From the IMG/VR virus record IMGVR_UViG_3300036770_002590, positions 1 through 35,031 of that record: a stretch of 35,031 bases of DNA, one strand, 5' to 3'. The translations under genes and the position numbers were made by a program. Shown here piece by piece: positions 1 through 33,911 of this stretch (the stretch's first letter is position 1; each line of letters starts with the position of its first letter). The notes under the pieces are model-generated. The model was not told the DNA's origin. It ran no database searches and saw only the letters and a program-made list of their open reading frames with translations. Origin of the DNA: a virus.

Positions 1-452
1 TCAGAGCATTTTTTACCTTTATGGTATATATTATAAAAATGTTTAGTTCCTTCTTCATACAATTGTTGGTAGTATTGAAGAGACTCGGTAAATTTTAATA
101 GGGATGATTCAATAGGCATTCCTTTTATATACTTTGTACCTAATAAATGCTTAATAGCAAAAACATTTGAAAATTTATAATAATTTTTAGTTGAACACAA
201 CGCTAGATAGTAATGTGCTAAAACATGGTCTTTAAAAAATAGGTTTACTATGTTTTCTACTTTATTGTTAATCTTTAAATCATTTTCTTTATAGTAGTAT
301 TTAGGTATAATATGGTGTCTTTGAGTTTTATGTATCTCCTGTTTAGTGGTGAGGTTTTGATTAATTAAACTAATGTATAAATCTAAATATTGATTGTCTA
401 ATACAATACCTATTTCTAAAAGTGTTTTTTTTAATTCCTGTATAACTATCAT
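1..452 (-). CDS. HNH endonuclease, partial (C-terminus outside window)
   Basis: The reading frame is open from an ATG at 452 to the window edge, giving about 150 residues with no stop. Residues 45-51 read RHHIIPK, followed by N67 in ENIVNL, D75-H76 and H80 (DHVLAHYYL). This spacing of HH, N and H is that of phage HNH homing-type endonucleases, which nick or cut DNA and are often mobile. The first 40 residues are helical with no recognised domain. No Shine-Dalgarno sequence precedes the ATG, but the motif GCTAAACTA ends only 4 nt upstream, so the message may be leaderless. It follows the gene at 491-961 by 38 bp in the same direction, inside the head module. It could be a free-standing homing gene or a resident phage nuclease. 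The family call is fairly sure; the target is unknown. Confidence 0.72.
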   Translation of the reverse strand, partial: MIVIQELKKTLLEIGIVLDNQYLDLYISLINQNLTTKQEIHKTQRHHIIPKYYYKENDLKINNKVENIVNLFFKDHVLAHYYLALCSTKNYYKFSNVFAIKHLLGTKYIKGMPIESSLLKFTESLQYYQQLYEEGTKHFYNIYHKGKKCS

Positions 453-9788: not shown

Positions 9789-10688
9789 ATGAAGCAAACA
9801 AATAAACACAATCACAAACATATCCATTTGACGGAAGCCCAGTTACAAGAGGCTAATCGTCAACAACTTTTGGCTAAGTCCAGAAAGGCTAAAAAATACT
9901 CTAAAAACAATCAAAGTAAGGGCATTAACCGCTATGAACGAAGGCTTAAGTCTCAGTTGTCTGCATCTGTCAAGGACTACAATATCATTGACATGGATAG
10001 ATTCTTTAAAAGAGATATCTTATCTTTTAGTGTTCCTGTTCGAGGGGAAACAGATGTATACCTTGTTAGTTTAGAACTACAAAACATTCTAAAAGAAATT
10101 CAACGTCAAATTCGCTCAAATAAAGGCAAACTTGAGTTTAAGGTAGTTTTATCTAGTCTATCTGCTGTTTTAAACACTGGTGATGTTTATACAAGCTGTA
10201 CATGCCCAGATGCCAAGTATCGTCAAGCGTATTGGCAAACCAGAAACAATTATAAGGCTGGCTACAAGGAATTAAGACCCAGCGATGAAACTAACCCTCA
10301 AGACGAACTTGGAGCAGGCTGTAAGCACGTTATGCTTGTTTTAGCAAACCTCAGCTGGATGTATAAAGTAGCCAGTGTTATTAACAACTATATTAAGTAC
10401 AGTCGTGATAGACTTCAAAAGAACTATATTGATTATATCTTCCCCAAAGTGTTTGGTATGAAGTATGACAAGGCTGTTCAATTACAACTCTTCTATTCCG
10501 ATGAGGAAAGTGGTCTATTACCTACCGACCAAGAAACAATTAGCAAGGCTATTGAACAAGGCTTAAAAGATAAAGATGCTGCTGGTAAGTTTGTACCTGG
10601 CAACACCATGAGATTCCAAAAAGAAAATCCCCCTCAAGAAGAAGAGGAAGAAGAAGTTAAAGAAGAAGAACTTAATAACAAGTTCTAA
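9789..10688 (+). CDS. SWIM-like zinc-site phage protein, only plus-strand gene
   Basis: This 299-residue protein has candidate zinc ligands C137 and C139 (TSCTCPD), then C178 and H180 (GAGCKHVML), i.e. CxC-x38-CxH. SWIM domains follow CxC-xn-CxH and bind DNA or protein partners; the 38-residue spacer here is longer than usual. The block from GAGCKH to ASVINNYIKY is a segment I recognise from uncharacterised proteins of gut-type phages. The N-terminus is basic (residues 23-55) and the C-terminus ends in a Glu run (284-294). No ribosome binding site precedes the ATG, and an in-frame stop lies 10 nt upstream, so the start is fixed unless an internal TTG is used. It runs against all neighbours and its TAA abuts the stop of the next gene. 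The role is unknown; nucleic-acid binding is possible. Confidence 0.78.
   Translation: MKQTNKHNHKHIHLTEAQLQEANRQQLLAKSRKAKKYSKNNQSKGINRYERRLKSQLSASVKDYNIIDMDRFFKRDILSFSVPVRGETDVYLVSLELQNILKEIQRQIRSNKGKLEFKVVLSSLSAVLNTGDVYTSCTCPDAKYRQAYWQTRNNYKAGYKELRPSDETNPQDELGAGCKHVMLVLANLSWMYKVASVINNYIKYSRDRLQKNYIDYIFPKVFGMKYDKAVQLQLFYSDEESGLLPTDQETISKAIEQGLKDKDAAGKFVPGNTMRFQKENPPQEEEEEEVKEEELNNKF
10667..10686. terminator. Candidate bidirectional terminator hairpin
   Basis: A perfect inverted repeat has 7-bp arms AGAACTT and AAGTTCT around a 6-nt loop, at the junction of two convergent genes and overlapping the plus-strand stop codon. On the minus strand the hairpin is followed by a T/C-rich run, better suited to termination than the plus-strand side. 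The stem is AT-rich and modest. Confidence 0.4.
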
Positions 10689-12677: not shown

Positions 12678-14615
12678 TTATATTGTTCTACGGAACTTAA
12701 ACGTCATTGTATGACTTGAAATTGAATCGCTTCCAGACACTTGCAACTTTAAGGTTGAAGGTGCACTAGATGTTCTAATCACACGAGCATAAATTCTACC
12801 TGCACTTGCTGCTGGTCCTGCTCTGTGTAAAACTATTTCATCGGCAGTGGTTGAAGTGGTTGTTCCACTAAACCAAGCCATATTACCTGTATAGTATTCT
12901 CCATTCGATTCTATTTGGACAATATAGGAACCTGTCGCTAGATAAGTTCCAGACACTCCTGTGACATCTGTCCATGATGTCGTAAGTGCCGAAGTGAACG
13001 TGGTTGTTTTTAACTGGTCGACGTTCGTACCATCTGTCATAGTAAGACCGGTATGTTTAATATCTCCTACTACATCTAATTTAGCCGAAGGGGTTGAAGT
13101 TCCTATACCAATAAGTCCTGTTGAAGTTATTCTCATTCTTTCAAGACTGCCATCTCCAACTCCATTTGTATGAAATGAAATTCCAGAAGTTTGAGAAGAC
13201 CAAACTTGCATCAAATTATTGGTAATACTTATACCTGAATTTGTGTGTAAAAGAAGACCGTTACCAACTCCTGTTTCTCTTATTTTTATACTTCCATTTA
13301 CATCTAAAAATTCGCCTGGACTTGTAGTATTTATACCTACCTTTCCATCAAGTTGAACTGACATTAATTCAACAGAACTTCCATTTACAATAGAGATTCT
13401 ATTACTACCTGAACTTAAGTCATCTCCATCGTATTCAATACCCATTGAATACGATTCAACAGCAGTTCCTTCAGCTTCACTAAACCACAAAGTAGGTTTA
13501 CCTGTGCCGCCACCGTCTTCTCCACCTTCTGCGTTTGATGATGATGCAATTAAAATATTACCTTGTTCTACAATAATTCCACCGTCTTTAATATGTAGCT
13601 TATCTAATGGATTTGTTTCTCCAATTCCAACACTGCCGTCTCCTTTAATTCGCAAGTGTTCTGAAAGACTACCACCAATATTTGCTGTTAAAAATGCTAA
13701 ATCACTATCACCACTAAAATTCGTATTTGTTCTAATGCTACGAATAGATGATTGTTGAAAATTATTTCCAGCAGTAGTGGTAACAACAAAATTTAACGAA
13801 GCATAGTCATTTGTTGTTCCACTACTTCTACGAATTTGAATACCATCATCATTAGATGCAGTAACAACTGATAATTTTGTACCGGGGTCAGTTGTTCCAA
13901 TACCAACATTACCACCATCTTCAATATAAAATGCACTTACACCATCATCTTGGAAATTTACAACTGGTTGAGCACCTGTTTGATTTACTATAACTGCTGG
14001 ACCCGTTCCATCATTTGTAATACTCAATTGTTCTGTATTAGCTACGTTTGTATTAACTTGTGTAACACTACCGTTAACTGTTAGGTTACCTTCAATACGT
14101 GCATCTCCAACTACATGTAATTTTTGTCCTGGACTTGTTGTACCAATACCTATATTACCACTACTGTCTATAACAAATCTATGCTGAGCAGCTGTAGCGT
14201 CATATATATCAAATATATCACTTAAACTTCCGTTATTATAGATTGTCCAAGTTCTGGCATCATTAGTTAAGTTTATAGTGGGATAACCATTTGCAGCACT
14301 ATCTCTTATACGTAATGTAGCACCGCCAGCTGTTGATGAAGAAATATCTAATTTATTACCCGGGTTATTTGTTCCAATACCAACATTACCACTACTGGTA
14401 ATTCTAACAACTTCAACCCCACCTTCAACTAAAGCCAAAGTATCAGCAGCAGGGCTAAATAAACCTGTATTTAAATCCCCACTAAAGGTATAAGAAGGTA
14501 ACGATGTTGTACCAAGAGGTGCTACAAAAGTACCTGTGGTAGTTAATGTTCCCGTGTTTGTGGTTCCCTGTACTAAGAGTGAACCGTAGATGTCTGTACT
14601 ATTTAATTTTGCCAT
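12678..14615 (-). CDS. Tail fibre protein with six GIGTTSP-type repeats, 645 aa
   Basis: Six copies of the repeat G-x-V/I-GIGTTSPG-x-KL are spread along the chain (for example GNVGIGTNNPGNKL and GKVGINTTSPGEFL), each usually preceded by a strand such as ERMRITSTG. This is the shaft pattern of many phage fibres. The first 60 residues (TDIYGSLLVQGTTNTGTLTTTGTF) resemble a fibre base. The last 100 residues, from about 545, form a separate beta domain ending TFKFRRTI and are the likely receptor-facing tip. The ATG at 14615 has AGGAGG 9 nt upstream. It is separated from its neighbours by 11 and 2 bp, so it belongs to a tight operon. No enzyme domain such as a depolymerase or lyase is apparent. Confidence 0.83.
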   Translation of the reverse strand: MAKLNSTDIYGSLLVQGTTNTGTLTTTGTFVAPLGTTSLPSYTFSGDLNTGLFSPAADTLALVEGGVEVVRITSSGNVGIGTNNPGNKLDISSSTAGGATLRIRDSAANGYPTINLTNDARTWTIYNNGSLSDIFDIYDATAAQHRFVIDSSGNIGIGTTSPGQKLHVVGDARIEGNLTVNGSVTQVNTNVANTEQLSITNDGTGPAVIVNQTGAQPVVNFQDDGVSAFYIEDGGNVGIGTTDPGTKLSVVTASNDDGIQIRRSSGTTNDYASLNFVVTTTAGNNFQQSSIRSIRTNTNFSGDSDLAFLTANIGGSLSEHLRIKGDGSVGIGETNPLDKLHIKDGGIIVEQGNILIASSSNAEGGEDGGGTGKPTLWFSEAEGTAVESYSMGIEYDGDDLSSGSNRISIVNGSSVELMSVQLDGKVGINTTSPGEFLDVNGSIKIRETGVGNGLLLHTNSGISITNNLMQVWSSQTSGISFHTNGVGDGSLERMRITSTGLIGIGTSTPSAKLDVVGDIKHTGLTMTDGTNVDQLKTTTFTSALTTSWTDVTGVSGTYLATGSYIVQIESNGEYYTGNMAWFSGTTTSTTADEIVLHRAGPAASAGRIYARVIRTSSAPSTLKLQVSGSDSISSHTMTFKFRRTI

Positions 14616-20789: not shown

Positions 20790-23700
20790 CTAAAATCTAA
20801 AGTCCAAAGTTCCAATAGAACCTTCATTAATTGTCCAGGAACCAATTCTTATTTCATTTGTTGTAACAGCTTGTGAGGTAATAACACCTTCTTTATCTAT
20901 ACTTGCTTTGCTAACACCTTCTGATTGTGCATCTAATATTAAACCTGTTGAAGATGTATTTTCTTGATTTACAATTAACGCAGAGTTTGCGTCAGCGACA
21001 TTTCTACGAATAACTGTTCCGTTAATAGTTAAATCTACACGGGAGTTATTTGCTCCAGTTGAACTTGCTACTAATGCACCAAATATAGAACCAAATTTAT
21101 TTATCCAAGCAACATCACTACCTGCTGCTTGCCATGTTTGCACATTAGCTGTTGACCCAGCATTTGCAAGGTTAACAATTAAAGCAGGATTGGCATCTGC
21201 TTGATTACGTGCAATAACAACACCAGTGGAGTTAGTGTTTATTCCGGCAAAAGCACTTCCGGATGTTGAATAAATACCCGGTAAAAATAAAGAACCATTA
21301 CTTAACATGAATGCTTTATCAGCACCATTTAATTGCCATTTTTGTAAGTTTTCTGTTGTTGAAGATATAGCATTAACAATTAAAGGAACTACATTAGTGG
21401 CACTATTGGTTACTCTAGCATCAACTAAACTTCCTGAACTTACTGTAAATCCAGAAACAGTATCAAATCTCTTTTCAGATTCATTCCAATAAGCAACACC
21501 ACCATTAACCGGTGTGTCTTGTCTTGTAGCAAGAGCTTGAGTATCACCAACGTCACCAACTCTGGCAATACCATTACCATCAAATATTAATTGTGAATCA
21601 CTTGTTCCATCTGCTAACTTAGCACGTAGACCAGCATATTCTCCTAATGGTAACCCTGTTGTTGCACCATCACGAAGAATAATTTCATCTTTCGTTGTAT
21701 AAATTTGTTCTGCATGTGTTTCATAGATAGAGCCTTGTTGATAAATATCTCCAGCAATATTTAAAGTGCCTGAAATATATGTATCTCCATCTTTATTGAC
21801 TCTAAACTTACTATTACTTCCAGAGTCACTGTTGACAGAAATTTTAAATAAGTTTTCTGTTGTTTCTGTTTGTAAGTCAAAACTTAATAAACCAGTTAAT
21901 CCAGATTCATTGTTTGTGTTGTATATTGTCCCACCTTGTTGAACTAGCAATTCTCCTGTTGGAGTTACTTCTGTTTCTACTGGTGTGGCTAATTGATAGT
22001 AAAGCTTTTTATTTGTAATTGCAGCTTTTGCAGCACTTAAAGAAGTTCCTTTTGTAAACCCAATCCATACAGAAGTATTAGAACCACCGTTGAAAGATAT
22101 TACACCATTATAATCTGCTAAATCAAGAATATTATCAACAGAGCGATAACCCTCTAAATAAAATGGTAATCCTGTTATAGAACCACTTTGAGGGCTGAAT
22201 AAAGGAATGAAACTTCTACTAATATATAAATAATCAATATTATTAAATGATGTAAGCATTAACCAGTTTTCAGTTCCGGTTATTGTATATTCTTCAACAC
22301 GTTTAATATGATAATAATTACCATCTCTAAATTCAATACTATCTCTTACACCATTAGGTAATCTATAACCATATGTATTTAAATCTAGTGTTAGGTTTGT
22401 TGCTTGATATGGTTCATATGTTGTAGCAGTGGTACCTTCTTCTATTTGGAATGTATTTAGTTTAACATAAACTCTTTGACCAGAATTCCAGACACCCCCA
22501 AAACCTATAACAGTTTTACCAGCAGTTGTAGTAATACTTCTTGAAACAAAAGAAGTTGAGTTTGTACCAGCTTGAGATGTTGTCCCATCACTGTAAAATA
22601 CAGCAAGAAATGCAGTTCCAGACGCAACAGCAATTTCATAATTAAATGTATATTGTGTATTAGGTTTAAAGGCATTTGTATAAATAATATTTTCTTGCAC
22701 CCCACTTCCAGCTATCCAAGAAAGAGTTTGAAAACCTAAATATTCTTGAACAGTGTACTGGGCGTTTCCAAATGGTGCTTCTTTATTAAATAAATTCTTT
22801 CCAACCGCAGTAATCGTTTTATCAAAAGGAACACCTTGAATATTATCATTAGGTAAAATACCTTGAGATATCCATAAGTCCATTTGTGCTTTGATTTCAG
22901 CATCTGACATAAGGTCGAATGTTGTGTTATATAATGGCGAGTATTGCTTGTTGGCGATTAAAGGAGTAATGTTAAACACATAAGCAAAATCAACTTCCAT
23001 TACTTTTCCATTTGCCGTAGCAGCATCTGCGTATCTATGAATAATTCTAATTGTTCCAGTTGAAGCATTTGTGACAGCAGATAAGTTATACCAAACATTT
23101 TGTGCAGGTGTTAATTGAACAACATAACTTGGAACTTCGACGTTCAATTGAGTAGCGTTAGCATTTGTAACCCTTGCTCTTACAATATTATAAATTTTAT
23201 TTCCACTTGGAAATGTAAAGTTTTGAGAAGTAAATGGGTCAGGATGACTTCCATCTCCTGTATTTGTTAAAATACCCCCAGATGCAGTGTTTACAGAACG
23301 TGCCCACGGCCAAAATGCTATGCCACTATCAAAATCTGGGTTAGTAAGTAATTGTGTCGCCTGTAACAAATCACCTTCAAGTTTAAAATCTAAAACATCT
23401 CGTTCTAGTATATTACTAGCCACACTTCCTACTGCATCATATTGTGTATATGCAATAGTTTCGGCACCATCATTAATTTCTAATTTTGCTGTAGGAGAGG
23501 TTATACCTATACCTACTTTACCATCTCGTTTTACTGTGAGTCTATCTGTTCCTGATGCTTGAACTTTAAGGATATCACCTGTTGAGGATGCATGAATTTG
23601 ATTGACAATCAATGTAGGATTCGTATCGGCAATGTTGCGAGAGATAACAGAACCATTATTTGTTAGTTCAATATGAGAATTGTTTGTTGATGTTAAATTA

Positions 23701-25292
23701 CCAACAGATGGACCATAATATCTACCACTAGCATTTATAATTGCGACAGTCGAACCATTAACACGCCATCTTTGTAATGCTTCGGTTTGACCAGTAAGGG
23801 CGTCAACAATTAAACCGATACGATTTGTCGCCCCACTCTTGACTTGTAATTGTGCCGATGGACTGGTTTCGTTGATACCCACAAGACCAACATGTGTAAT
23901 ACGCATTCTTTCGTAGTTAGTTCCACTTGAAGAAGCATTAAATGTTAAAGCAAAATTATTATTAGAACCATCTCTTAAAGAACTTATTGAACCTTGTTCC
24001 CAAGAGTATTGTGAATTATAAAATAAAATTTGTTGTGCCGAACTTGCCACCGTTCCAACTTCACTTAATCTAATTGATGTGCTTAAACTTGTGGCAGTAG
24101 ATGTATTAACTTCTAATTGCGAAGCAGGAGCACTCGTCCCAATCCCAACTTTTCCGTCAGGCATAATGGTCATTTTTTCGGTAAATGAACCAGCGTTAGT
24201 AGTTTCTAAAACAATTCTACCACTATTGTCAGCACCACTTCTTACAGCACCAATACGAGCAAGGTTATTATCAACATTGGCACTATCTTTAATTCTAAAT
24301 TGAAAAGAAGCACCAAAACCATCTTCCATATTAGCAGTAGTTGTTGCTTGAACTACTTGTGTTCCAAGATTTCCAGTAGTGGCGTTTGTGGTTCTTTCAA
24401 CGCTTAACGGTGGGAAAGTAGCACTACTTGCGAAGACTTGTCCAGCAAGTAATTGCGAAGCCGTATTGCGATTAAACACGAACTCGCTGACCGATGAATT
24501 ACCGAACACCATTTGGTTGGACTTGTCGGTGTAGGCTAAATAGCCCAATGCTGTGCTATTTGAAGCAGTAGCAAGTTGTGAAGCGTTAAACCCAGCGTCA
24601 CGACCAATAAAGGTATTGTTAGAACCACTTGTAATGGTTTGACCACTTCTTCTACCAACGGAAACATTGTTAGCACCAGTTGTTAATGAAAACATAGAAG
24701 TAGCACCGATTGCTGTGTTTGAACTACCACTTGTTAAAGAATTGAAAACACTATTACCAAAACCAACATTATCAGTTCCAGTAGTAGAAGTTCCACCACT
24801 ACTATTTCCAAAAAAAGTGTTGCTTGTATCTACTGGTTGTGAGAACAATCTCGTTCCATTTTGGTTGATAAAACCATCCTTAGTAACTTCTAACTTACTT
24901 GTGCCATCAACTTTAAACTCAGCAAGGTTTGCTGTTTGACCTGTTAAAGTATCCAATACTAAAGGAACTTTAGTTGTAGCATCTGATTTTACTTGTAGTT
25001 TAGCTGTAGGGGTTAAAACACCTATACCCACGTTTCCACTACTCTCTGCTAATATTACTCTACCATCATCAAATACTTCAATGCTGGCAATACCTGAAAT
25101 ATCATTAACAGAAAATATTGAACCTGTCAAGGTGTCTACAATAGAAAATAACTGACCATTCGTTCCACTGAAGGATAAAACACCCCCAGCTACTGCTGTC
25201 ATTACAATGGAATCTGTTCCATTTTCTTCTACGAATTGAATGTTCTGTGTTTCAAGACCATTCTTTACTACGAATCTTTTACTGTTTGCCAT
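20790..25292 (-). CDS. Large tail fibre with YadA-like, GIGTTSP and carbohydrate-binding-like parts, 1500 aa
   Basis: The open frame reaches a TTG at 25310, but the ATG at 25292 (MANSKRFVVKNGL) is the usual fibre N-terminus, so I start there. Residues about 154-264 carry YadA-head-like repeats (NTAIGATSMFSLTTGANNVSVG, cut short here, and NNTFIGRDAGFNASQLA). Four GIGTTSP-type repeats follow or flank them. Residues about 630-1130 hold carbohydrate-binding-like units (LLTNPDFDSGIAFWPWARS). Residues about 1171-1271 carry the fibre segment GDIYQQGSIYETHAEQIYTT to DTPVNGGVAYW. The end (SQAVTTNEIRIGSWTINEGS) resembles a C-terminal trimerisation or tip. A segment near residues 138-490 is nearly identical in places to the 2572-aa gene at DNA level. 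The role is a virion fibre for host contact. Confidence 0.85.
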   Translation of the reverse strand: MANSKRFVVKNGLETQNIQFVEENGTDSIVMTAVAGGVLSFSGTNGQLFSIVDTLTGSIFSVNDISGIASIEVFDDGRVILAESSGNVGIGVLTPTAKLQVKSDATTKVPLVLDTLTGQTANLAEFKVDGTSKLEVTKDGFINQNGTRLFSQPVDTSNTFFGNSSGGTSTTGTDNVGFGNSVFNSLTSGSSNTAIGATSMFSLTTGANNVSVGRRSGQTITSGSNNTFIGRDAGFNASQLATASNSTALGYLAYTDKSNQMVFGNSSVSEFVFNRNTASQLLAGQVFASSATFPPLSVERTTNATTGNLGTQVVQATTTANMEDGFGASFQFRIKDSANVDNNLARIGAVRSGADNSGRIVLETTNAGSFTEKMTIMPDGKVGIGTSAPASQLEVNTSTATSLSTSIRLSEVGTVASSAQQILFYNSQYSWEQGSISSLRDGSNNNFALTFNASSSGTNYERMRITHVGLVGINETSPSAQLQVKSGATNRIGLIVDALTGQTEALQRWRVNGSTVAIINASGRYYGPSVGNLTSTNNSHIELTNNGSVISRNIADTNPTLIVNQIHASSTGDILKVQASGTDRLTVKRDGKVGIGITSPTAKLEINDGAETIAYTQYDAVGSVASNILERDVLDFKLEGDLLQATQLLTNPDFDSGIAFWPWARSVNTASGGILTNTGDGSHPDPFTSQNFTFPSGNKIYNIVRARVTNANATQLNVEVPSYVVQLTPAQNVWYNLSAVTNASTGTIRIIHRYADAATANGKVMEVDFAYVFNITPLIANKQYSPLYNTTFDLMSDAEIKAQMDLWISQGILPNDNIQGVPFDKTITAVGKNLFNKEAPFGNAQYTVQEYLGFQTLSWIAGSGVQENIIYTNAFKPNTQYTFNYEIAVASGTAFLAVFYSDGTTSQAGTNSTSFVSRSITTTAGKTVIGFGGVWNSGQRVYVKLNTFQIEEGTTATTYEPYQATNLTLDLNTYGYRLPNGVRDSIEFRDGNYYHIKRVEEYTITGTENWLMLTSFNNIDYLYISRSFIPLFSPQSGSITGLPFYLEGYRSVDNILDLADYNGVISFNGGSNTSVWIGFTKGTSLSAAKAAITNKKLYYQLATPVETEVTPTGELLVQQGGTIYNTNNESGLTGLLSFDLQTETTENLFKISVNSDSGSNSKFRVNKDGDTYISGTLNIAGDIYQQGSIYETHAEQIYTTKDEIILRDGATTGLPLGEYAGLRAKLADGTSDSQLIFDGNGIARVGDVGDTQALATRQDTPVNGGVAYWNESEKRFDTVSGFTVSSGSLVDARVTNSATNVVPLIVNAISSTTENLQKWQLNGADKAFMLSNGSLFLPGIYSTSGSAFAGINTNSTGVVIARNQADANPALIVNLANAGSTANVQTWQAAGSDVAWINKFGSIFGALVASSTGANNSRVDLTINGTVIRRNVADANSALIVNQENTSSTGLILDAQSEGVSKASIDKEGVITSQAVTTNEIRIGSWTINEGSIGTLDFRF
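24463..24533. repeat. 71-bp perfect direct repeat, copy 1
   Basis: These 71 bases are identical, with no mismatch, to 30196-30266 in the other giant fibre gene, 5733 bp away and in the same direction. They encode the end of the YadA-like block (QMVFGNSSVSEFVFNRNT). The stretch is visibly richer in G+C than its surroundings. Confidence 0.9.
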
Positions 25293-25323
25293 AAGTTCAC
25301 TTTCCCTCAATGGTTAACTAGCT

Positions 25324-25434
25324 TTAAGCTTCGATGGAGTCGATTGATTTCGGTGGTGTCCAATCTTCTCCAACTAGTTTATCTAGTGTTTCCGTATATT
25401 TATATTTTTTAAATATCAATTTAAATTTATTCAT
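25324..25434 (-). CDS. Small ORF, 36 aa, between two fibre genes
   Basis: An ATG at 25434 opens a 36-codon frame ending in TAA at 25324 and fills most of the gap between the LamG gene and the 1500-aa fibre. It has GAGG 7 nt upstream and a promoter motif 14 nt upstream. The product starts basic and aromatic (MNKFKLIFKKYKYTETLDKL) and ends acidic (SIDSIEA), with WTPP in the middle. I know no family. Ribosome site, promoter motif and fit to the gap argue that it is real. Confidence 0.55.
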   Translation of the reverse strand: MNKFKLIFKKYKYTETLDKLVGEDWTPPKSIDSIEA

Positions 25435-25448
25435 TTTATTGCCTCATA

Positions 25449-25457
25449 TATTTTAGC
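25449..25457 (-). promoter_or_regulatory. Candidate late promoter motif GCTAAAATA
   Basis: On the minus strand TGGCTAAAATA lies 14 nt before the 36-aa ORF and would also serve the 1500-aa fibre gene and those after it. It sits directly after a hairpin that overlaps the stop codon of the upstream LamG gene. Confidence 0.5.
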
Positions 25458-25464
25458 CATTATA

Positions 25465-25487
25465 TTTACAAGTTTTTACCTTATAAA
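25465..25487 (-). terminator. Candidate terminator overlapping the LamG stop codon
   Basis: On the minus strand 8-nt arms TTTATAAG and CTTGTAAA (one U-G pair) enclose a 7-nt loop, and the TAA stop lies within the first arm. The stem is AT-rich. Position immediately before a promoter motif supports a boundary between transcription units. Confidence 0.38.
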
Positions 25488-26188
25488 CCATATCTTCCAC
25501 GCAGTGCTTCAAAGTTTTGTTTGATTTCTTGAACGGATAAAGCCTTGTTATAAACTCTTACTACAGCTAACTTTCCTTTAAACATTTCTAAACCTGAATC
25601 AAATCCTAAATATATAGGAAAAGAGTTTGCAGTCATACCACCCGAAGCTGTGCTAACTTGAACGGTATTCAAATAACCAAAAGAAGTTGAGGATATTACT
25701 GCAACAACATGGTACCACTTATTTCCTGTATAATCTGTAAATAAATCAGTTGCAGAATTAAATACCGAAGGTCTTTCAATATGTAAATATTTTAATCCTA
25801 CTGATTGATTAACAGATATAGCAGGTGTTTGATTACTCCTTGTACTTCCTTTACTAAAAATAGCCATCCAAGTAGAATCTCCTGATATAACACTTTTTGT
25901 TTGTAAGGTGAATATTAACTCAACTGTCATTGTAGATACTGATTGAAGAGATGCACTATTATTAATAACCATTCCACCATTTATACCTATTGATGTTGCA
26001 GGAAAGGTAAAATAACCTTCTGAATTCCAAACTGGATTATTTGCATTTCCATTTAATAATGCATTATTACCATTGCTTGTCAAGTCAAACCATGTGTTTC
26101 CAGTTCCAGGATATGACTTAGGATTAGCTGCATCAAGATAAAGAACTAATCCATCTGTTATTATTTTAGGATTATAATTGATAGCCAT
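25481..26188 (-). CDS. LamG / concanavalin-like virion adhesin, 235 aa
   Basis: This is a single LamG-type jelly-roll domain spanning nearly the whole 235-residue chain. It opens with TDGLVLYLDAANPKSYPG and WFDLTSNGNNALLNG, has the middle strands MTVELIFTLQ and KWYHVVAVIS, and closes with GKLAVVRVYNKALSVQEIKQ. This exact order is common in adhesin proteins of large phages, where it is thought to bind surface sugars. The ATG at 26188 has AGGAG 9 nt upstream. The gene lies 4 bp after the 2572-aa fibre gene and is probably cotranslated with it. It has no shaft, so it probably binds to another virion protein. Confidence 0.85.
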   Translation of the reverse strand: MAINYNPKIITDGLVLYLDAANPKSYPGTGNTWFDLTSNGNNALLNGNANNPVWNSEGYFTFPATSIGINGGMVINNSASLQSVSTMTVELIFTLQTKSVISGDSTWMAIFSKGSTRSNQTPAISVNQSVGLKYLHIERPSVFNSATDLFTDYTGNKWYHVVAVISSTSFGYLNTVQVSTASGGMTANSFPIYLGFDSGLEMFKGKLAVVRVYNKALSVQEIKQNFEALRGRYGL

Positions 26189-26192
26189 TTAT

Positions 26193-29100
26193 TTACGCTC
26201 CTATCAATGTGAATGTTGTTTTAAATGTTGTAGATGTTGCAGAAGCAGGAGTAATTAATACTCTTACGTTTCCACCACTAATATCTACTTCTGTGGTGAA
26301 GAGTGTGCTTCCTGTTTGGATTATAGCATATTCTGTTGCGTAGACTGTTGTTCCATCATGAACTACTAATAATTCAGTAATTTGTCTTGCTGTTCCTTGA
26401 GTTGCTTGGATTAAGAACTTACCACTTCCATATGTTGCAGCAGCAAATGTTGCTAATGCTGTTTGTGTTGTAGCCGTTGTTGTTAGGGTTGCTGTATCCT
26501 GTGTTGATAAGTTATCTATTGTGATTGATGGGACTTCTAAATTGTTTGATAAAACAAATTCTTGTTCACTATCACCAAATCTAATGAAGTGAGCAGTGTC
26601 AGATTCATCATCCCCAAAGTAAATGTAGGTGTCTGCGTTTCCTGGTGTGTTATCGTTATTTAAGTATAAATCACCAAATCCTACAATATTTCCCCTAATT
26701 CTAGCATTACCATTAACATCTAATAATTCAACAGGACCTGCCGTTCCAATTCCTATCCTACCTTCTGTATCAATACGTAATCTTTCAACCATGTCTGTTT
26801 GGTCATAAATTGTATACGTTCCATTATCCGTAATAAATCTAAAATGACCTTCACTATTTTTAAGTTCTAAACTTGCTTGACTTGTTCCTGAAGTTTCAGC
26901 CCAAACCTTAGCAGCAGTTGATATAGACCTTACTTCACCTGCTACATCCAAAGTTTTTCCAGGACTTGTAGTTCCAATACCTACATTACCATCAGAAGTT
27001 ATACGCATTCTTTCTGAATTATTTGTAGCAAATCTCGTAGGAACATTTTCTTTTCCCCAAAAGATATTACTATCATCTTGATGTCCAACAATTAAACCAT
27101 CATTTGCTGTTTCTCCAGAAACTGCTGTTGTAAAAGACATATTTGAGTTTGTTCCTGTAGAATGAATATGAAATTTATTTGCAGGACTTGTAGTTCCAAT
27201 ACCTACATTACCACTTGTATTAATTCGTAATCTTTCAACTCCATTTGTTCCAAGGACTAAACCCATGTTTCCTTGACCACGAACTATTAAATTATCAGAA
27301 TCCCAACTTATTAAACCTCTTTCACCAGCACTTCCAAATGTCATTGTCCCTCTAAAATTTGAAGAACCATTTACATCAAGTAAATTACCAGGTGTGTTTG
27401 TCCCAATACCTACTTTACCATCAGACTTAATAATCATTCTATCTGCTGCTCTTGAACCCTCAACACCACTTACCGAAGAAGTTGTTCCAAAAACTAAATC
27501 AGCACCAACTCCAAATGAATTGATAGTTCTTGCTTCGATTAAAGCAGCAACATTAGGCCCGTCACTTGAAGCATCGTTGTTGAAAAACTCAATACCAGCA
27601 TAGTTAACATTAGCGACATTACCAGTAGAACCACTAATTCTTAAATAACTTTCTGAAGCAGTTGCATTTTGAATTTCTAAAATTCTTTGTGGATTTGATG
27701 TTCCAATACCGATGTTACCGTTTTCTCTAACTCTAAATCTTTCTACATTGTTACCAGTTGAATTTTCACTTACTTCAATATAAAAATCAGCCCCAGCATT
27801 TGCCCCTTCTCTTTTTGAAACTAAACTTACATCACATGCATCACCTATTGTGTGTGATAAACGTAATGCTACTTCTGTTTGGTCTGCATTTGTATCATTT
27901 GTAAAATTACCAAGAACCACCCTTCCAGAAGCTGAACCTCTTACATCTAATTTATAAGATGGGCTTGTAGTTCCAATACCTATATTACCAGTATTGGTAA
28001 TTGTCATTCTTTCAATGGCGTTGGTACCTGGGTCATTAGTTCCAGTTACTGTTTCAGTTCCTGTTAGGAATGATATACCCCCACCTGTACTAACATTGCT
28101 AATGATTTGAAGTTCATTATCATTTAATCTGACTGCAGCTTCTGTACCGCCACCATCTGCTTTAAACCAAAGTTCAGGTAAATCAGTTTCGTTGTTATTA
28201 TCTGTGTCAGCTTCTATGATTACTATAGCACTTCCAGATGTTCCTGAACTTATATGTAATTTTCCTGAAGGTGTGGATGTTCCAATACCAAAATTACCAT
28301 CTGTAGTCATACGCATGCGTTCTGTAAAGTTTACAGGACCACCAGAAAGATTTGTACCAAATGCTATGTATTGGTCAGTGGTTGTATTAGAGGCATTTAA
28401 TCTTATTGCACCAGCTGTACCTGAGTTAAAACTATCACCTCTAATGTATCGAGATATAATTCCATCACCATTTAATATATGCAAAGGTGCTTGCGGGCTA
28501 GAATAACCAATACCAATGTTTCCATTGGAAGCAAATGTCATTCTATTTAATCCAAGAGTATTATCATAAATATTTAATCGTCCATTATCATTTATAATAG
28601 AAAAATCACTGTCATGGTCTGTGTCAGTAATATCGATACGAGGATATATACCTCTAACTGTAAAGTTACTTGCCTCAACAAATACATCTTTATTAAAGGT
28701 AAAGGCATCAGCAGTAGCACCATAAGTTAAACTTGCACTTCCATCAGTTCCTAAGTCTATAGTAATACCTGCTCCATCAGAAGCTGCCTTATTAATAGCA
28801 CCTTTAGATAAAACAATATTCTTATCTGCTACATCTATCGTAGTAGAGTTAATTGTAGTAGTTGTTCCATCTACTTGTAAATCACCTAAGATAATAACTT
28901 TACCTGTTATATCACCATGACCTGATGGGTCAATAGTAAAGGTTGTAGGAGCAAGAAGTGTTCCGTCACGTTTAAATGAAATAACATTGGTTCCACTTGC
29001 TTGTAAATCTAAAATATTACCTGTGGATGAAGCGTTTTGTTGATTAACAATTAATGCTGTATTACTATCAGCAACATTACGTTCTACTTTAACACCTGTT

Positions 29101-32100
29101 GTTAATGTATAAACTACACCATTTACAGCACCTGATAAATTGGCTAAACCTAAATTTGTTCTTAATCTACCAAGATTATCAATAGTTGTTAATTCTGTTC
29201 CTGCCTTTTGAAATTTAACAATATCTGCACTCGCACTTGCGTTTGCGAGATTTACAATAAGGGCAGGATTTGTATCAGCGACGTTTCGAGAGATAGTTGT
29301 TCCAGTAGTTGCTGTAAATATACGAGAAAATTCTGCCGAGTTCATATTAGAAATACCATTAGTAGTTCTAATTAAACCATCACTCGCTATTAAAACACGT
29401 AGAGAATTATTACCATTAAATTCGGCAAGGTTTGTTGTATGACCACTTGCTAATGTATCAACCACGAGTGGAACACGAGTAGTAGCCCCACTCTTAACTT
29501 GTAATTGAGCCGTAGGCGAGGTTTCGTTGATACCCACAAGACCATCATCACGAATACGCATACGTTCCGCTAAAGCAGTGTTTGTAAATGTATGGAAAGA
29601 TAAATCACTATCGCCACTTACAGCACGATTTGTTCTAGTATTTCGTATTTCACCAGTGTTTGTGGCACTATCACTTTCAGCAACTCTAAACCCTAATAAA
29701 GCAATTTGGTTAGCACTACTTGAATTTCTGCGAACTTGAATACCATCGGTGTTAGATTGCGAAACTACGGTTAGTAGTTGAGCAGGAGAACTCGTCCCAA
29801 TCCCAACTTTTCCGTCAGGCATAATCGTCATTAGATTACTTAATCCATTTCTAAATGTAAATGCCTTACGATTAGCAACATTACTAATTGTTCCATTGAA
29901 TGGGTCATTTGCGTTATCAGTTCTTATAACTTCAAAATCAACAAGACCAAAATTAGAACTATTACTTGCGTCATTAGCGGGAGTTGAAAACCCTGTAAAT
30001 TTTAAACCCCAATGAATTGTGCTACTTGATATACCACCAAATGATGGAGCAAACACACCATCTGTAATAGTTCCGTTAGCAATAACAAAACGACTATTTG
30101 CGTCATCACTAATTGTTGCGTCCATTAGTTTTTCTCTTGTGGCAGTTGCCGAAGCAACACTTAATGATAATCTCGGCAATAACGCAGTAGCACTCGTATT
30201 GCGATTAAACACGAACTCGCTGACCGATGAATTACCGAACACCATTTGGTTGGACTTGTCGGTGTATGCTGAATTCCCCAAAGCAGTGGAATTCGTTGCT
30301 GTCGCAAGTTGTAAAGCGTCAAAACCAGCACCTGAACCAACGAAAGTATTATTTGAACCTGTGGTAATGGTTCTACCACTTTCAGTTCCTATTCCAACGT
30401 TGGCATTACCAGTTGATAATGAATTAAAAGAACGCAAACCCAAACCAACATTAGTAATTCCAGTTGTTAATGCGTTTAACGAATTAAAACCAACAGCAAC
30501 ATTACTACCACCACTTGTAAGTGATAATAATGCTCTATCTCCAAAACCTGTATTAGCAGTTCCAGTTAAGGTTAAGTTTCCACTTTGATTTCCAAAGAAA
30601 GTATTACTTGTTCCACCTGTTTGATGAAACAATCTCGTTCCATTTTGGTTGATAAAACCATCTTTGGTTATCTCTAACTTATTCGCACCAGCAAATTGTA
30701 AGCGTAAAATATCGCCTGTCGAAAAAGCGTTTGCTTGATTTACGACTAAAGATGGGTTGCTGTCTGCGATGTTGCGAGAGATAACTGTGCCATTAGTGGT
30801 TGTATTAACAAAAGAATTATTACCACCAGCACTTGCTTTTAAACCATTGCCAAAAAATTCCAAAGCAGAAAATATACCGTTAGATTGTAAAAAAGCAATG
30901 GGTGTGTTATTAACTTGCCACTCTTGTAATCTTGCGGTTGTTCCACTAATACCATTTATCGTCAAAGGTCTAACACCAACAGAAGAGTTTGTAACAGTAG
31001 CATCAACTAATGTTGCATTTGCAAGGGGTGCATAATAAGAACCATGTTGGCCATCTAATAAGTCAGCATTTAAATTAGTTACAACTTGTGTAGAATCAAC
31101 TGTAAATGGTGCTGTAGCCCCAGATGTTCCACCATTGAAAGCAGGAATACTTGTGAATGTTTTAACACCACTTAACGTTTGGTCACCAGATGTTCTAACA
31201 ACTGTAGTATCAGCAGAGAATACAGTTCCTTCTAGTTTAACACCATCTGTTGCTGTATATGTTCCAGCACCAGAGAATTGGAAATAATTAATCGCATTTG
31301 TTCCAACAACAAAAGTTGATTGGTCTGCAACATTTGCTACCCAACCTGTATTGGCATATAATGTTCCATGCTTAACAAAAACATAACTTCCAGGTATTTC
31401 ACTTGCTTGGTCACAGAAAGCACAACGTGTAAGTATCCAAGGTAAACTTCCTGTACCTTGTTGTGTTAAGTTATATCTACCATTATGTGCTGGATTTGCT
31501 TGATTCTTAACAAGAACACCGTTTAATCCAGGTGTAGTTGAGGTTAATGTATATCCATCTATTTCAGGGAATGCACCATTCGTTGTTGATGTTAATGTAG
31601 CACCAACACCATCTGAACCATTTAAATAGTTAGCAGTTAAAGAAGCAGTTGTAGCAACCTCTACTGCTGGAGCTGATTTTAATCCTTGTGCAATTTCATT
31701 AACATACTCTACACTGGAGTAGTATGAACCGTGTTGTCCATCTAAGTAATCTGCATTTAAGTTATCTACCTTCGTTGTAGAAGCAACAGTTAAAGGAGCA
31801 GTTCCTGTTGTTTGTGTTGAAATAAATCTTGTAGCTTCAACGTTACCAAAAACGTCTAAAGCTTCTACTGGGTCAACTAAACCAATACCTACCTTAACTG
31901 CACTGTTTCTTGAAAGTAGTATTTCTGATACATCACCATTACCAAATACCATTTGATTAGATTTGGTTGTGTATGAACCATTACCGATAGCAGTAGAGTT
32001 GTTGGCACTTGCTAATTGTGAAACATTAAAACCTGCAACATAACCGATAAACGTGTTGTTAGAACCACTTGTGTTAGAACGACCTGAAGCTAAACCAACA

Positions 32101-33911
32101 GCGGAATTATTTGAACCAGTTGTATTTCCAAACAAACCATACCAACCAACAGCAACGTTACTTGAACCAGTTGTATTTGATAAAAAACTTTGATAACCTA
32201 TTGCTGTGTTATAACTTGCGTGATTAACTGATGTAGCAGTAGAACCCATTGTGAAGTTACCAGCTAACTCACCTACAAAAATGTTTTGACCATTAGGTAT
32301 CGCAGTAGAACCTGTTGGGTGTTTGAAATTATGTAACAATCTTGTTCCATTTTGTGTAAGGAATCCATCTTTAGTGATTTCTAATTTATTTACACCACCA
32401 AATTGGAAATCAACAATATTGGCAGTATTGCTTAAATTATTATTGTTAATTCTTAAAGTTGGATTAGCATCGGCTATATCCCTTCTTATTACTATTCCAA
32501 ATGTATTCAAATCAATTCTTGCATTATTAGCACTAGATGTATTTATAACACTTGCAACACCAAATCTTGCAAATCTATCTATGTATGCTTGAACAGAGTT
32601 ATCTATTCTCCAACTTTGTAAATCGGCAGTAGTCCCAGTAATCGCATTGATTGTTAAAGGTCTAAGTGTAATTGCCGAATTTGTAATCGTAGAATCAACT
32701 AAGTTTGTAGTACCATTGACAATGTTAGCAATACCAGTATAAGCACCAGCAATCGTTTGTGTATTATCTGTATTATAGTTTGCAGTTCCTCTGGCTAATC
32801 CAATTGCAGCATAAAGGTTCTTTAACTTAATGTCAATATTTTCAGATGTTGAGGCTGAAGTTAATTCTGTCCATGAGTTATAAGAACCGTCTGCATTATC
32901 TAAAGATGCAAAGTTTGCAAGTTTAGAAAGTGCAATGTTTCCTGCCAACATGGCATTAGTAACACCGGAATTAGAAATAGATAAAGTCGTACCTGTCTTT
33001 GTTAAGCCCGCACCAGCAAGGATGGTATCAATTCTTGCAGCAGAAATCCAAGTTGTATCTGTAGTTGCTTGGAATGTCCAGTCATTATGGGTAGTACCAT
33101 TTTCAACGAAGACCATAATACCGAGTTTACTATCAACAGTATCTTTAATCCAAATGTCAGATGAAACAGTATAGACACCATTTTCAGATGGTGTTGTTTG
33201 TCCATAAATTAATATACGGTCACCCTCTACTGTTTGATAACCATCAATAATAGCTAAACCTGAAAGTGATGCTTGATTAACACTGGTAGCTGCTTTGACT
33301 GGTCCATTGGTAGCCCAACGTAAACCAGCAGCAACTAAAGTATCAACGTATTGTTTTGTTGTAGCATCAGATGTACCAACAGGGGAAATTAATCCTGTAA
33401 GGTAATTTTGACTTTTAAGGTTAATGATTCCAGGAATAAGTTCATCTTCACCCTTTTCATAACTAAAGCTTGAAAATAGGTCCTCACTATTCCCCAAATT
33501 AAATTCAATGGTATCATCTGCTAATATGATTTGAGTACCACCTAACCCTTCGGAGGTAAGTCCACCGTAAAGGGATAAGTTTGATTCGGCAATACTCTTA
33601 ATTGTATTCCCAGTTAAAGTTCCAATAAAAGCAGGATTGTTCTTGAGTAGATACGTTTCGGATAAGTCACCGATTAAACTTCTATCAATCTTTCCTGGGT
33701 CTTGTAGCGTTTCAGAATCATCAGAGTTAATTTTAACCAACTTGTCTGCAACATTAAAACCACTAGTAAGGTATGTACTAATTGCTTCTCTTTCGGAAGC
33801 AGTCATTATTTTAAGAGTTTCTGTTTCGTCAACTAAATCAGCAGAAGTCTTAAAATAGTATTCTACCCACGCAGTACCTGTCCAACGTTTATATATCGAC
33901 TTTGTTGGCAT
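26193..33911 (-). CDS. Giant tail fibre protein, 2572 aa
   Basis: The N-terminus (IYKRWTGTAWVEYYFKTSAD) looks like a virion-attachment region. Two copies of a fibre domain with ENGVYTV or HNGRYNLTQ and FVENGT or FVKHGT lie near residues 190-310 and 760-890. The second carries an unusual RCAFCDQASE near residue 827. YadA-head-like repeats occupy about 570-657 and 1104-1239. LNADYLDGQHGSYY and LNADLLDGQHGSYY lie before and after the second domain. DGTTTTINSTTIDVADKNIV (about 1677-1696) is a segment widespread in large-phage fibres. Eleven GIGTTSP-type repeats run mostly along the C-terminal half. The last 100 residues (GSGKFLIQATQ, ITELLVVHDGTTVYATEY, GGNVRVLITP) form a recurrent tip domain. 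It is the largest protein in the window and presumably the main long fibre. Confidence 0.88.
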   Translation of the reverse strand: MPTKSIYKRWTGTAWVEYYFKTSADLVDETETLKIMTASEREAISTYLTSGFNVADKLVKINSDDSETLQDPGKIDRSLIGDLSETYLLKNNPAFIGTLTGNTIKSIAESNLSLYGGLTSEGLGGTQIILADDTIEFNLGNSEDLFSSFSYEKGEDELIPGIINLKSQNYLTGLISPVGTSDATTKQYVDTLVAAGLRWATNGPVKAATSVNQASLSGLAIIDGYQTVEGDRILIYGQTTPSENGVYTVSSDIWIKDTVDSKLGIMVFVENGTTHNDWTFQATTDTTWISAARIDTILAGAGLTKTGTTLSISNSGVTNAMLAGNIALSKLANFASLDNADGSYNSWTELTSASTSENIDIKLKNLYAAIGLARGTANYNTDNTQTIAGAYTGIANIVNGTTNLVDSTITNSAITLRPLTINAITGTTADLQSWRIDNSVQAYIDRFARFGVASVINTSSANNARIDLNTFGIVIRRDIADANPTLRINNNNLSNTANIVDFQFGGVNKLEITKDGFLTQNGTRLLHNFKHPTGSTAIPNGQNIFVGELAGNFTMGSTATSVNHASYNTAIGYQSFLSNTTGSSNVAVGWYGLFGNTTGSNNSAVGLASGRSNTSGSNNTFIGYVAGFNVSQLASANNSTAIGNGSYTTKSNQMVFGNGDVSEILLSRNSAVKVGIGLVDPVEALDVFGNVEATRFISTQTTGTAPLTVASTTKVDNLNADYLDGQHGSYYSSVEYVNEIAQGLKSAPAVEVATTASLTANYLNGSDGVGATLTSTTNGAFPEIDGYTLTSTTPGLNGVLVKNQANPAHNGRYNLTQQGTGSLPWILTRCAFCDQASEIPGSYVFVKHGTLYANTGWVANVADQSTFVVGTNAINYFQFSGAGTYTATDGVKLEGTVFSADTTVVRTSGDQTLSGVKTFTSIPAFNGGTSGATAPFTVDSTQVVTNLNADLLDGQHGSYYAPLANATLVDATVTNSSVGVRPLTINGISGTTARLQEWQVNNTPIAFLQSNGIFSALEFFGNGLKASAGGNNSFVNTTTNGTVISRNIADSNPSLVVNQANAFSTGDILRLQFAGANKLEITKDGFINQNGTRLFHQTGGTSNTFFGNQSGNLTLTGTANTGFGDRALLSLTSGGSNVAVGFNSLNALTTGITNVGLGLRSFNSLSTGNANVGIGTESGRTITTGSNNTFVGSGAGFDALQLATATNSTALGNSAYTDKSNQMVFGNSSVSEFVFNRNTSATALLPRLSLSVASATATREKLMDATISDDANSRFVIANGTITDGVFAPSFGGISSSTIHWGLKFTGFSTPANDASNSSNFGLVDFEVIRTDNANDPFNGTISNVANRKAFTFRNGLSNLMTIMPDGKVGIGTSSPAQLLTVVSQSNTDGIQVRRNSSSANQIALLGFRVAESDSATNTGEIRNTRTNRAVSGDSDLSFHTFTNTALAERMRIRDDGLVGINETSPTAQLQVKSGATTRVPLVVDTLASGHTTNLAEFNGNNSLRVLIASDGLIRTTNGISNMNSAEFSRIFTATTGTTISRNVADTNPALIVNLANASASADIVKFQKAGTELTTIDNLGRLRTNLGLANLSGAVNGVVYTLTTGVKVERNVADSNTALIVNQQNASSTGNILDLQASGTNVISFKRDGTLLAPTTFTIDPSGHGDITGKVIILGDLQVDGTTTTINSTTIDVADKNIVLSKGAINKAASDGAGITIDLGTDGSASLTYGATADAFTFNKDVFVEASNFTVRGIYPRIDITDTDHDSDFSIINDNGRLNIYDNTLGLNRMTFASNGNIGIGYSSPQAPLHILNGDGIISRYIRGDSFNSGTAGAIRLNASNTTTDQYIAFGTNLSGGPVNFTERMRMTTDGNFGIGTSTPSGKLHISSGTSGSAIVIIEADTDNNNETDLPELWFKADGGGTEAAVRLNDNELQIISNVSTGGGISFLTGTETVTGTNDPGTNAIERMTITNTGNIGIGTTSPSYKLDVRGSASGRVVLGNFTNDTNADQTEVALRLSHTIGDACDVSLVSKREGANAGADFYIEVSENSTGNNVERFRVRENGNIGIGTSNPQRILEIQNATASESYLRISGSTGNVANVNYAGIEFFNNDASSDGPNVAALIEARTINSFGVGADLVFGTTSSVSGVEGSRAADRMIIKSDGKVGIGTNTPGNLLDVNGSSNFRGTMTFGSAGERGLISWDSDNLIVRGQGNMGLVLGTNGVERLRINTSGNVGIGTTSPANKFHIHSTGTNSNMSFTTAVSGETANDGLIVGHQDDSNIFWGKENVPTRFATNNSERMRITSDGNVGIGTTSPGKTLDVAGEVRSISTAAKVWAETSGTSQASLELKNSEGHFRFITDNGTYTIYDQTDMVERLRIDTEGRIGIGTAGPVELLDVNGNARIRGNIVGFGDLYLNNDNTPGNADTYIYFGDDESDTAHFIRFGDSEQEFVLSNNLEVPSITIDNLSTQDTATLTTTATTQTALATFAAATYGSGKFLIQATQGTARQITELLVVHDGTTVYATEYAIIQTGSTLFTTEVDISGGNVRVLITPASATSTTFKTTFTLIGA
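30196..30266. repeat. 71-bp perfect direct repeat, copy 2
   Basis: This copy is identical to 24463-24533. Flanking islands are also shared in the same order: 29790-29825 matches 24132-24167 (36 bp), and 30628-30662 matches 24844-24878 (35 bp). All offsets are multiples of three. Confidence 0.9.

Follow-up and report, generated by a model that had tools for sequence, protein, structure and literature searches.

Short islands of DNA identity between two tail-fibre genes of a metagenomic phage and their probable role as joints for module shuffling

Invertible tail-fibre switches, such as those operated by Gin in phage Mu and Cin in phage P1, need inverted sites together with a site-specific invertase. 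The distal tail fibres (adhesins) of T-even phages reportedly recombine at conserved motifs, and the tail-fibre genes of P2 and other phages are said to be mosaic. In the Ackermannviridae phage S117, recombination between paralogous tail-spike genes replaced the receptor-binding part or led to deletion (PMC11414711). Smug et al. (2023) documented domain shuffling in phage receptor-binding proteins in a broad survey at the protein level (PMC10684548). The fibres described here would belong to this already known kind of module shuffling.

Fibre cluster and paired islands

The DNA that we analysed (hereafter the window) is an entire virus record of 35,031 bases, a single metagenomic record that may be a fragment. 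It carries portal, terminase and holin genes in addition to fibre genes. Its terminase is best matched by those of Maribacter phages (32% identity), and the named genome relatives of the fibre head module are Bacteroidota, plus one uncultured bacterium of unstated kind; from these two lines of evidence, a Bacteroidota host is likely. The fibre cluster lies on the minus strand in the order B (2572 aa), LamG (235 aa), A (1500 aa), a 683-aa gene, C (377 aa), a 989-aa gene with two LamG matches, D (645 aa) and E (437 aa). The features that concern us are listed below; the start of fibre A was taken as the ATG at 25292, a start common to a related record, G003.

20790..25292, minus strand: fibre A, 1500 aa, with a conserved N-terminal anchor, a hag-like head region and VGIG-type modules; PHROG tail-fibre match (phrog_9942)
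25324..25434, minus strand: 36-aa ORF
25481..26188, minus strand: LamG (concanavalin-like) gene between fibres B and A
26193..33911, minus strand: fibre B, 2572 aa, with an N-terminal part and a C-terminus kept in G003 and modules in between; PHROG tail-fibre matches (phrog_9942 and phrog_18345)
12678..14615, minus strand: fibre D, 645 aa; in G003, its C-terminus follows an A-type start
24844..24878, minus strand: 35-bp linker island in A, encoding DGFINQNGTRL, where A-B homology begins
30628..30662, minus strand: identical copy of the 35-bp island in B
24462..24533, minus strand: 72-bp linker island in A, encoding YTDKSNQMVFGNSSVSEFVFNRNT, after which A-B homology ends
30195..30266, minus strand: identical copy of the 72-bp island in B
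24132..24167, minus strand: 36-bp linker island in A, encoding IMPDGKVGIGTS, the switch point of the natural chimera L043
29790..29825, minus strand: identical copy of the 36-bp island in B
23865..23889, minus strand: 25-bp linker island in A, encoding GLVGINET, where A-B homology picks up again
29520..29544, minus strand: identical copy of the 25-bp island in B
31818..32480, minus strand: B1, located within fibre B, where the head module occurs for a third time; its synonymous sites are saturated, and it served as a negative control

The four paired matches between A and B are exact and collinear, and all are direct repeats. The original prediction had placed a 71-bp match among matches of 25, 36 and 35 bp in the same order; all proved exact where placed, the longest extending to 72 bp at maximum (24462-24533 = 30195-30266) and the other three being already maximal. 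The DNA between them, which had been called diverged, is indeed diverged or non-homologous. In the codon alignment of A and B, each island encodes a linker at which homology between the two fibres begins or ends. The offsets between copies (5655, 5658, 5733 and 5784) are all multiples of 3 as claimed, an observation of little information that shows only that A and B are in the same absolute frame; a crossover would be in frame at any offset because both copies of an island encode the same peptide in frame. Of the window's exact direct repeats (18 bp or more), those of 72, 36 and 35 bp are the longest; a local match of 32 bp between two tandem VGIG modules (26960/27182) comes next.

Fibre A and its island region had zero DNA matches among 50,697 phage records, and an exact 35-base pattern taken from the 36-bp island gave no hit in IMG/VR. 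For the N-terminal 404 aa of fibre B, a pattern search gave no confirmed relative; G003 has one at 52-56%. The predicted structure of an A module was too poor (mean pLDDT 48.6) for domain borders to be drawn, and the search of solved structures returned only a marginal match (E 0.099). Elsewhere in the window, a partial ORF at the record end (3-452, minus strand) matches HNH/homing endonuclease families. A plus-strand ORF of 299 aa amid minus-strand genes (9789-10688) matches no family; it is probably a real gene because it is 89% identical in G003.

Synonymous identity and codon composition of the linkers

Synonymous positions were identical between A and B at 53/54 sites in the islands (0.98) and at 92/171 outside them (0.54), against 0.49 expected at saturation; outside the islands, even stretches of conserved protein have synonymous sites close to saturation. 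The p value of this contrast (6e-11) comes from islands that were themselves selected for identity. Since the islands had been picked in this way, the fair test is a runs test that ignores their borders: the longest identical run was 24 codons, against a permuted mean of 7.9 (20,000 permutations; p about 5e-5). Given the amino acids, and with independent codon choice from the codon usage of both genes, the four islands have log10 P values of -7.2, -3.9, -3.0 and -2.4. The B1 copy of the motif (31.9-32.4 kb) has a synonymous identity to A of 0.41 at the island columns versus 0.48 outside, so the linker protein motif does not force these codons. These results bear out the original claim that synonymous conservation in the islands exceeds what protein selection would produce: island identity is due neither to chance nor to protein selection alone.

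An identity peculiar to this genome was not supported: three fibre genes of other phages (L040, L042 and L043) carry these linkers too, again with unusually similar DNA. At island columns, synonymous identity of A or B to these genes was 0.74-0.80, versus 0.51-0.58 outside. A comparison in which the window takes no part, L040 versus L043, gave 0.80 at island columns versus 0.51 outside (p = 0.0005), and L042 and G003 share an exact match of 48 bp at the VKSGAT linker. When linkers were set by protein motif, A-B identity was 0.86 versus 0.63-0.78 for other pairs, a modest excess (Fisher p = 0.02, on non-independent data). Because the linkers are alike in other phages and this excess is modest, a recent conversion event private to this genome is possible but not required. 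The codons of the VGIGT linker are linked as haplotypes (19 versus 25.5 when shuffled, p < 0.0002).

The islands also differ in base composition, with a third-position GC (GC3) of 0.55 versus 0.16 in the remainder of fibre A. High linker GC3 recurs in five genes (A, the B copy B2, L040, L042 and L043), at 0.38-0.55 versus 0.16-0.26 (amino-acid matched p < 0.002); B1 keeps the motif as protein, yet has GC3 values of 0.17 and 0.12. GC3 is raised at conserved fibre columns. No such rise occurs at conserved columns of portal and terminase, a result that led us to reject general translational selection as the cause of linker GC3. RNA structure was rejected as well, the two copies being inconsistent around the 72-bp island (z of -2.5 in A and -0.9 in B), as was an overlapping antisense ORF (30019-30588, plus strand), which has no counterpart across the 72-bp island of A. 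Codon selection, a common GC-richer source or GC-biased conversion could each account for the composition of the linkers.

Module slots and related phages

For comparison across a small sample of related phages, we cut the fibres at the linkers into slots, slot 0 lying before the 35-bp linker, slot 2 between the 72- and 36-bp linkers and slot 3 between the 36- and 25-bp linkers. All five copies (A, B, L040, L042 and L043) have homologous slots 1 and 4. In slot 2, A resembles L043 (Z 21) and has no detectable homology to B (Z -0.4); the same module is also present in a B-type gene of G003 (Z 22). In slot 3, it is B that resembles L043 (Z 24), with A versus B at Z -0.9. In slot 0, B resembles L040, L042 and L043 (Z 23-39) and is unlike A (A versus B, Z 3.2). 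L043 is thus a natural chimera of an A-type slot 2 and a B-type slot 3 that switches at the 36-bp linker, which is the kind of breakpoint between swapped modules that the original prediction had proposed to look for in related phages. The fibres thus display non-homologous modules between common linkers, modules that are combined otherwise in related phages with the switch at a linker, and DNA identity localised to linkers.

What comes after the A anchor varies: VGIG modules in the window and G003, collagen-like repeats in L104 and L105. In the phage that carries L043 (G007; L101 and L043), two fibre genes lie 33 kb apart; they are 95% identical over a 1.3-kb 5' part and divergent beyond it, and the end of the second gene resembles an endosialidase-type chaperone, as judged by eye.

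G003 shares about 82% DNA identity with the window in conserved genes. The A N-terminal anchor is 82% identical in G003 and the B C-terminus 65% identical. One G003 gene (27575-33346) has an A-like start (82% over 96 aa) and an end like that of window fibre D (89% DNA identity over 464 bp), with both homologies ending at VGIG-type linkers. The window and this relative differ by an in-frame fusion of fibre genes, for which either G003 lost the genes between A and D or the window gained them. Fibre B of the window corresponds to two adjacent G003 genes of 407 and 1389 aa (L037 15950-17173 and 11763-15932). Between B and A, the window has a single LamG gene (25481-26188) and G003 has three (L037 9688-11758), each sharing about 32% identity with that of the window. 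In G003, L104 and L105, a longer ORF immediately precedes the A anchor, and its C-terminus is similar to the 36-aa ORF, which is probably a truncated remnant of a deletion.

Explanations for the islands and comparison with known systems

The explanation that we consider likely is that fibre modules are shuffled by homologous recombination at the linkers, from phage to phage and probably from one paralogous gene to another. Fibres A and B would be mosaics: their ends would be phage-specific, and the modules inside, which can be interchanged, would be connected by short conserved linkers such as the four islands. Homologous recombination at the linkers among co-infecting phages, and probably between paralogs of the same genome, would swap modules in frame; linker DNA would stay alike as the matching, exchanged part while the intervening modules are replaced or diverge. 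The recombination would presumably be carried out by host RecA or a phage annealing protein, and the modules presumably set host range. A and B may have exchanged linker DNA directly in this lineage, a step that the modest A-B excess at motif-defined linkers (0.86 versus 0.63-0.78) does not prove.

Selection on linker DNA or RNA, through codons for accurate or paced translation or another nucleotide signal, might instead keep the codons alike with no recombination at these sites. We regard this as unlikely, although recombination alone does not predict high linker GC3 and selection on DNA or codons could cause it: the GC3-rich linkers of A, B2, L040, L042 and L043 and the rise confined to conserved fibre columns fit selection, whereas B1 keeps the motif as protein with low GC3 and saturated synonymous sites, other phages write GLVGINET with other codons, the VGIGT codons travel as haplotypes, no RNA fold is consistent between the copies, and the module swaps would be left unexplained. 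A further idea, also unlikely, is that the linkers are DNA-level recombination hot spots kept across the phage family. Repeated exchange there would have biased them towards GC (GC3 about two to three times that of the flanks), and every fibre gene would hold a series of docking sites at which modules are swapped. No paper in the collection searched treats GC-biased conversion in connection with phage tail fibres. It is improbable that one recent duplication copied the whole region between the fibre genes and that the inter-island modules then diverged quickly under selection. The collinear islands and the homology of slots 1 and 4 would be expected of such an event, but it is largely refuted by slots 2 and 3, which lack detectable A-B homology (Z below 0) and have their counterparts in other phages. 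Also against it is the near saturation of synonymous sites outside the islands, conserved protein stretches included.

The original prediction had also raised a built-in switch of host range, in which programmed or frequent crossover between islands would delete 5733 bp and fuse fibre B to fibre A. A crossover in the 72-bp repeat would remove 5733 bp and yield a predicted in-frame fusion of 2462 aa, and paralogous receptor-binding genes of one engineered phage have recombined or been deleted in the laboratory (PMC11414711). The same event would cost fibre A about 253 codons at its N-terminus and fibre B about 1333 at its C-terminus, both of them ends that are conserved in G003, and the deletion would be irreversible because the repeats are direct. 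Profile searches of the larger window ORFs against Pfam and PHROG found no invertase, integrase, serine recombinase or reverse transcriptase, although the record may be a fragment and a distant gene is possible. No repeat within the G003 genome exceeds 23 bp; long islands are absent there, so the repeats are not kept as a device. A programmed switch is therefore highly improbable. An invertible switch of the Gin/Cin type was rejected since all four islands are direct rather than inverted and no serine recombinase matched in the larger ORFs, and a diversity-generating retroelement since no reverse transcriptase matched and the copies are identical, without adenine changes. Occasional recombination between islands appears plausible, and related phages combine modules otherwise at the same linkers, which argues for ordinary shuffling of fibre modules rather than a built-in switch. 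We give equally little credence to an assembly artefact, with sequences wrongly joined at the 72-bp repeat during metagenome assembly. In its favour, only one metagenomic virus record underlies the window, and the near-identical records G001 and G002 stop short of the fibre A and B genes; against it, G003, an independent record, has the same order of B N-terminus, B C-terminus, LamG and A N-terminus.

Linker-mediated shuffling would make this locus a clear case of natural fibre-module exchange whose joints are visible in the nucleotide sequence, for two genes within a genome as well as from phage to phage. Should GC-rich, codon-conserved linkers turn out to mark exchange points in general, other receptor-binding proteins could be searched for swap joints by this mark. 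As in the T-even adhesins, short conserved motifs between variable segments would be the joints at which specificity modules are swapped; the protein family is different, and the linkers of the window, known here from sequence alone, are common to two paralogous fibres of the same genome as well as to different phages. The likeness to P2-type mosaicism lies in horizontal exchange of fibre segments among unrelated phages, although those are enterobacterial fibres, likened to ours by description and not by sequence. Like the Gin/Cin switches, shuffling in the window would alter the fibre tip by recombination, but its repeats are direct and no invertase was found. Sequence common to two receptor-binding genes of one genome is the feature that S117 and the window share, but the S117 events followed engineered gene insertion and laboratory selection, whereas the islands of the window are natural, short and read from the DNA record (PMC11414711). 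Finally, the homologous fragments in otherwise unrelated fibres, and the near-identical anchors with different tips, reported by Smug et al. resemble what we describe; in the window, identity extends to the DNA level and is localised to the linkers (PMC10684548).
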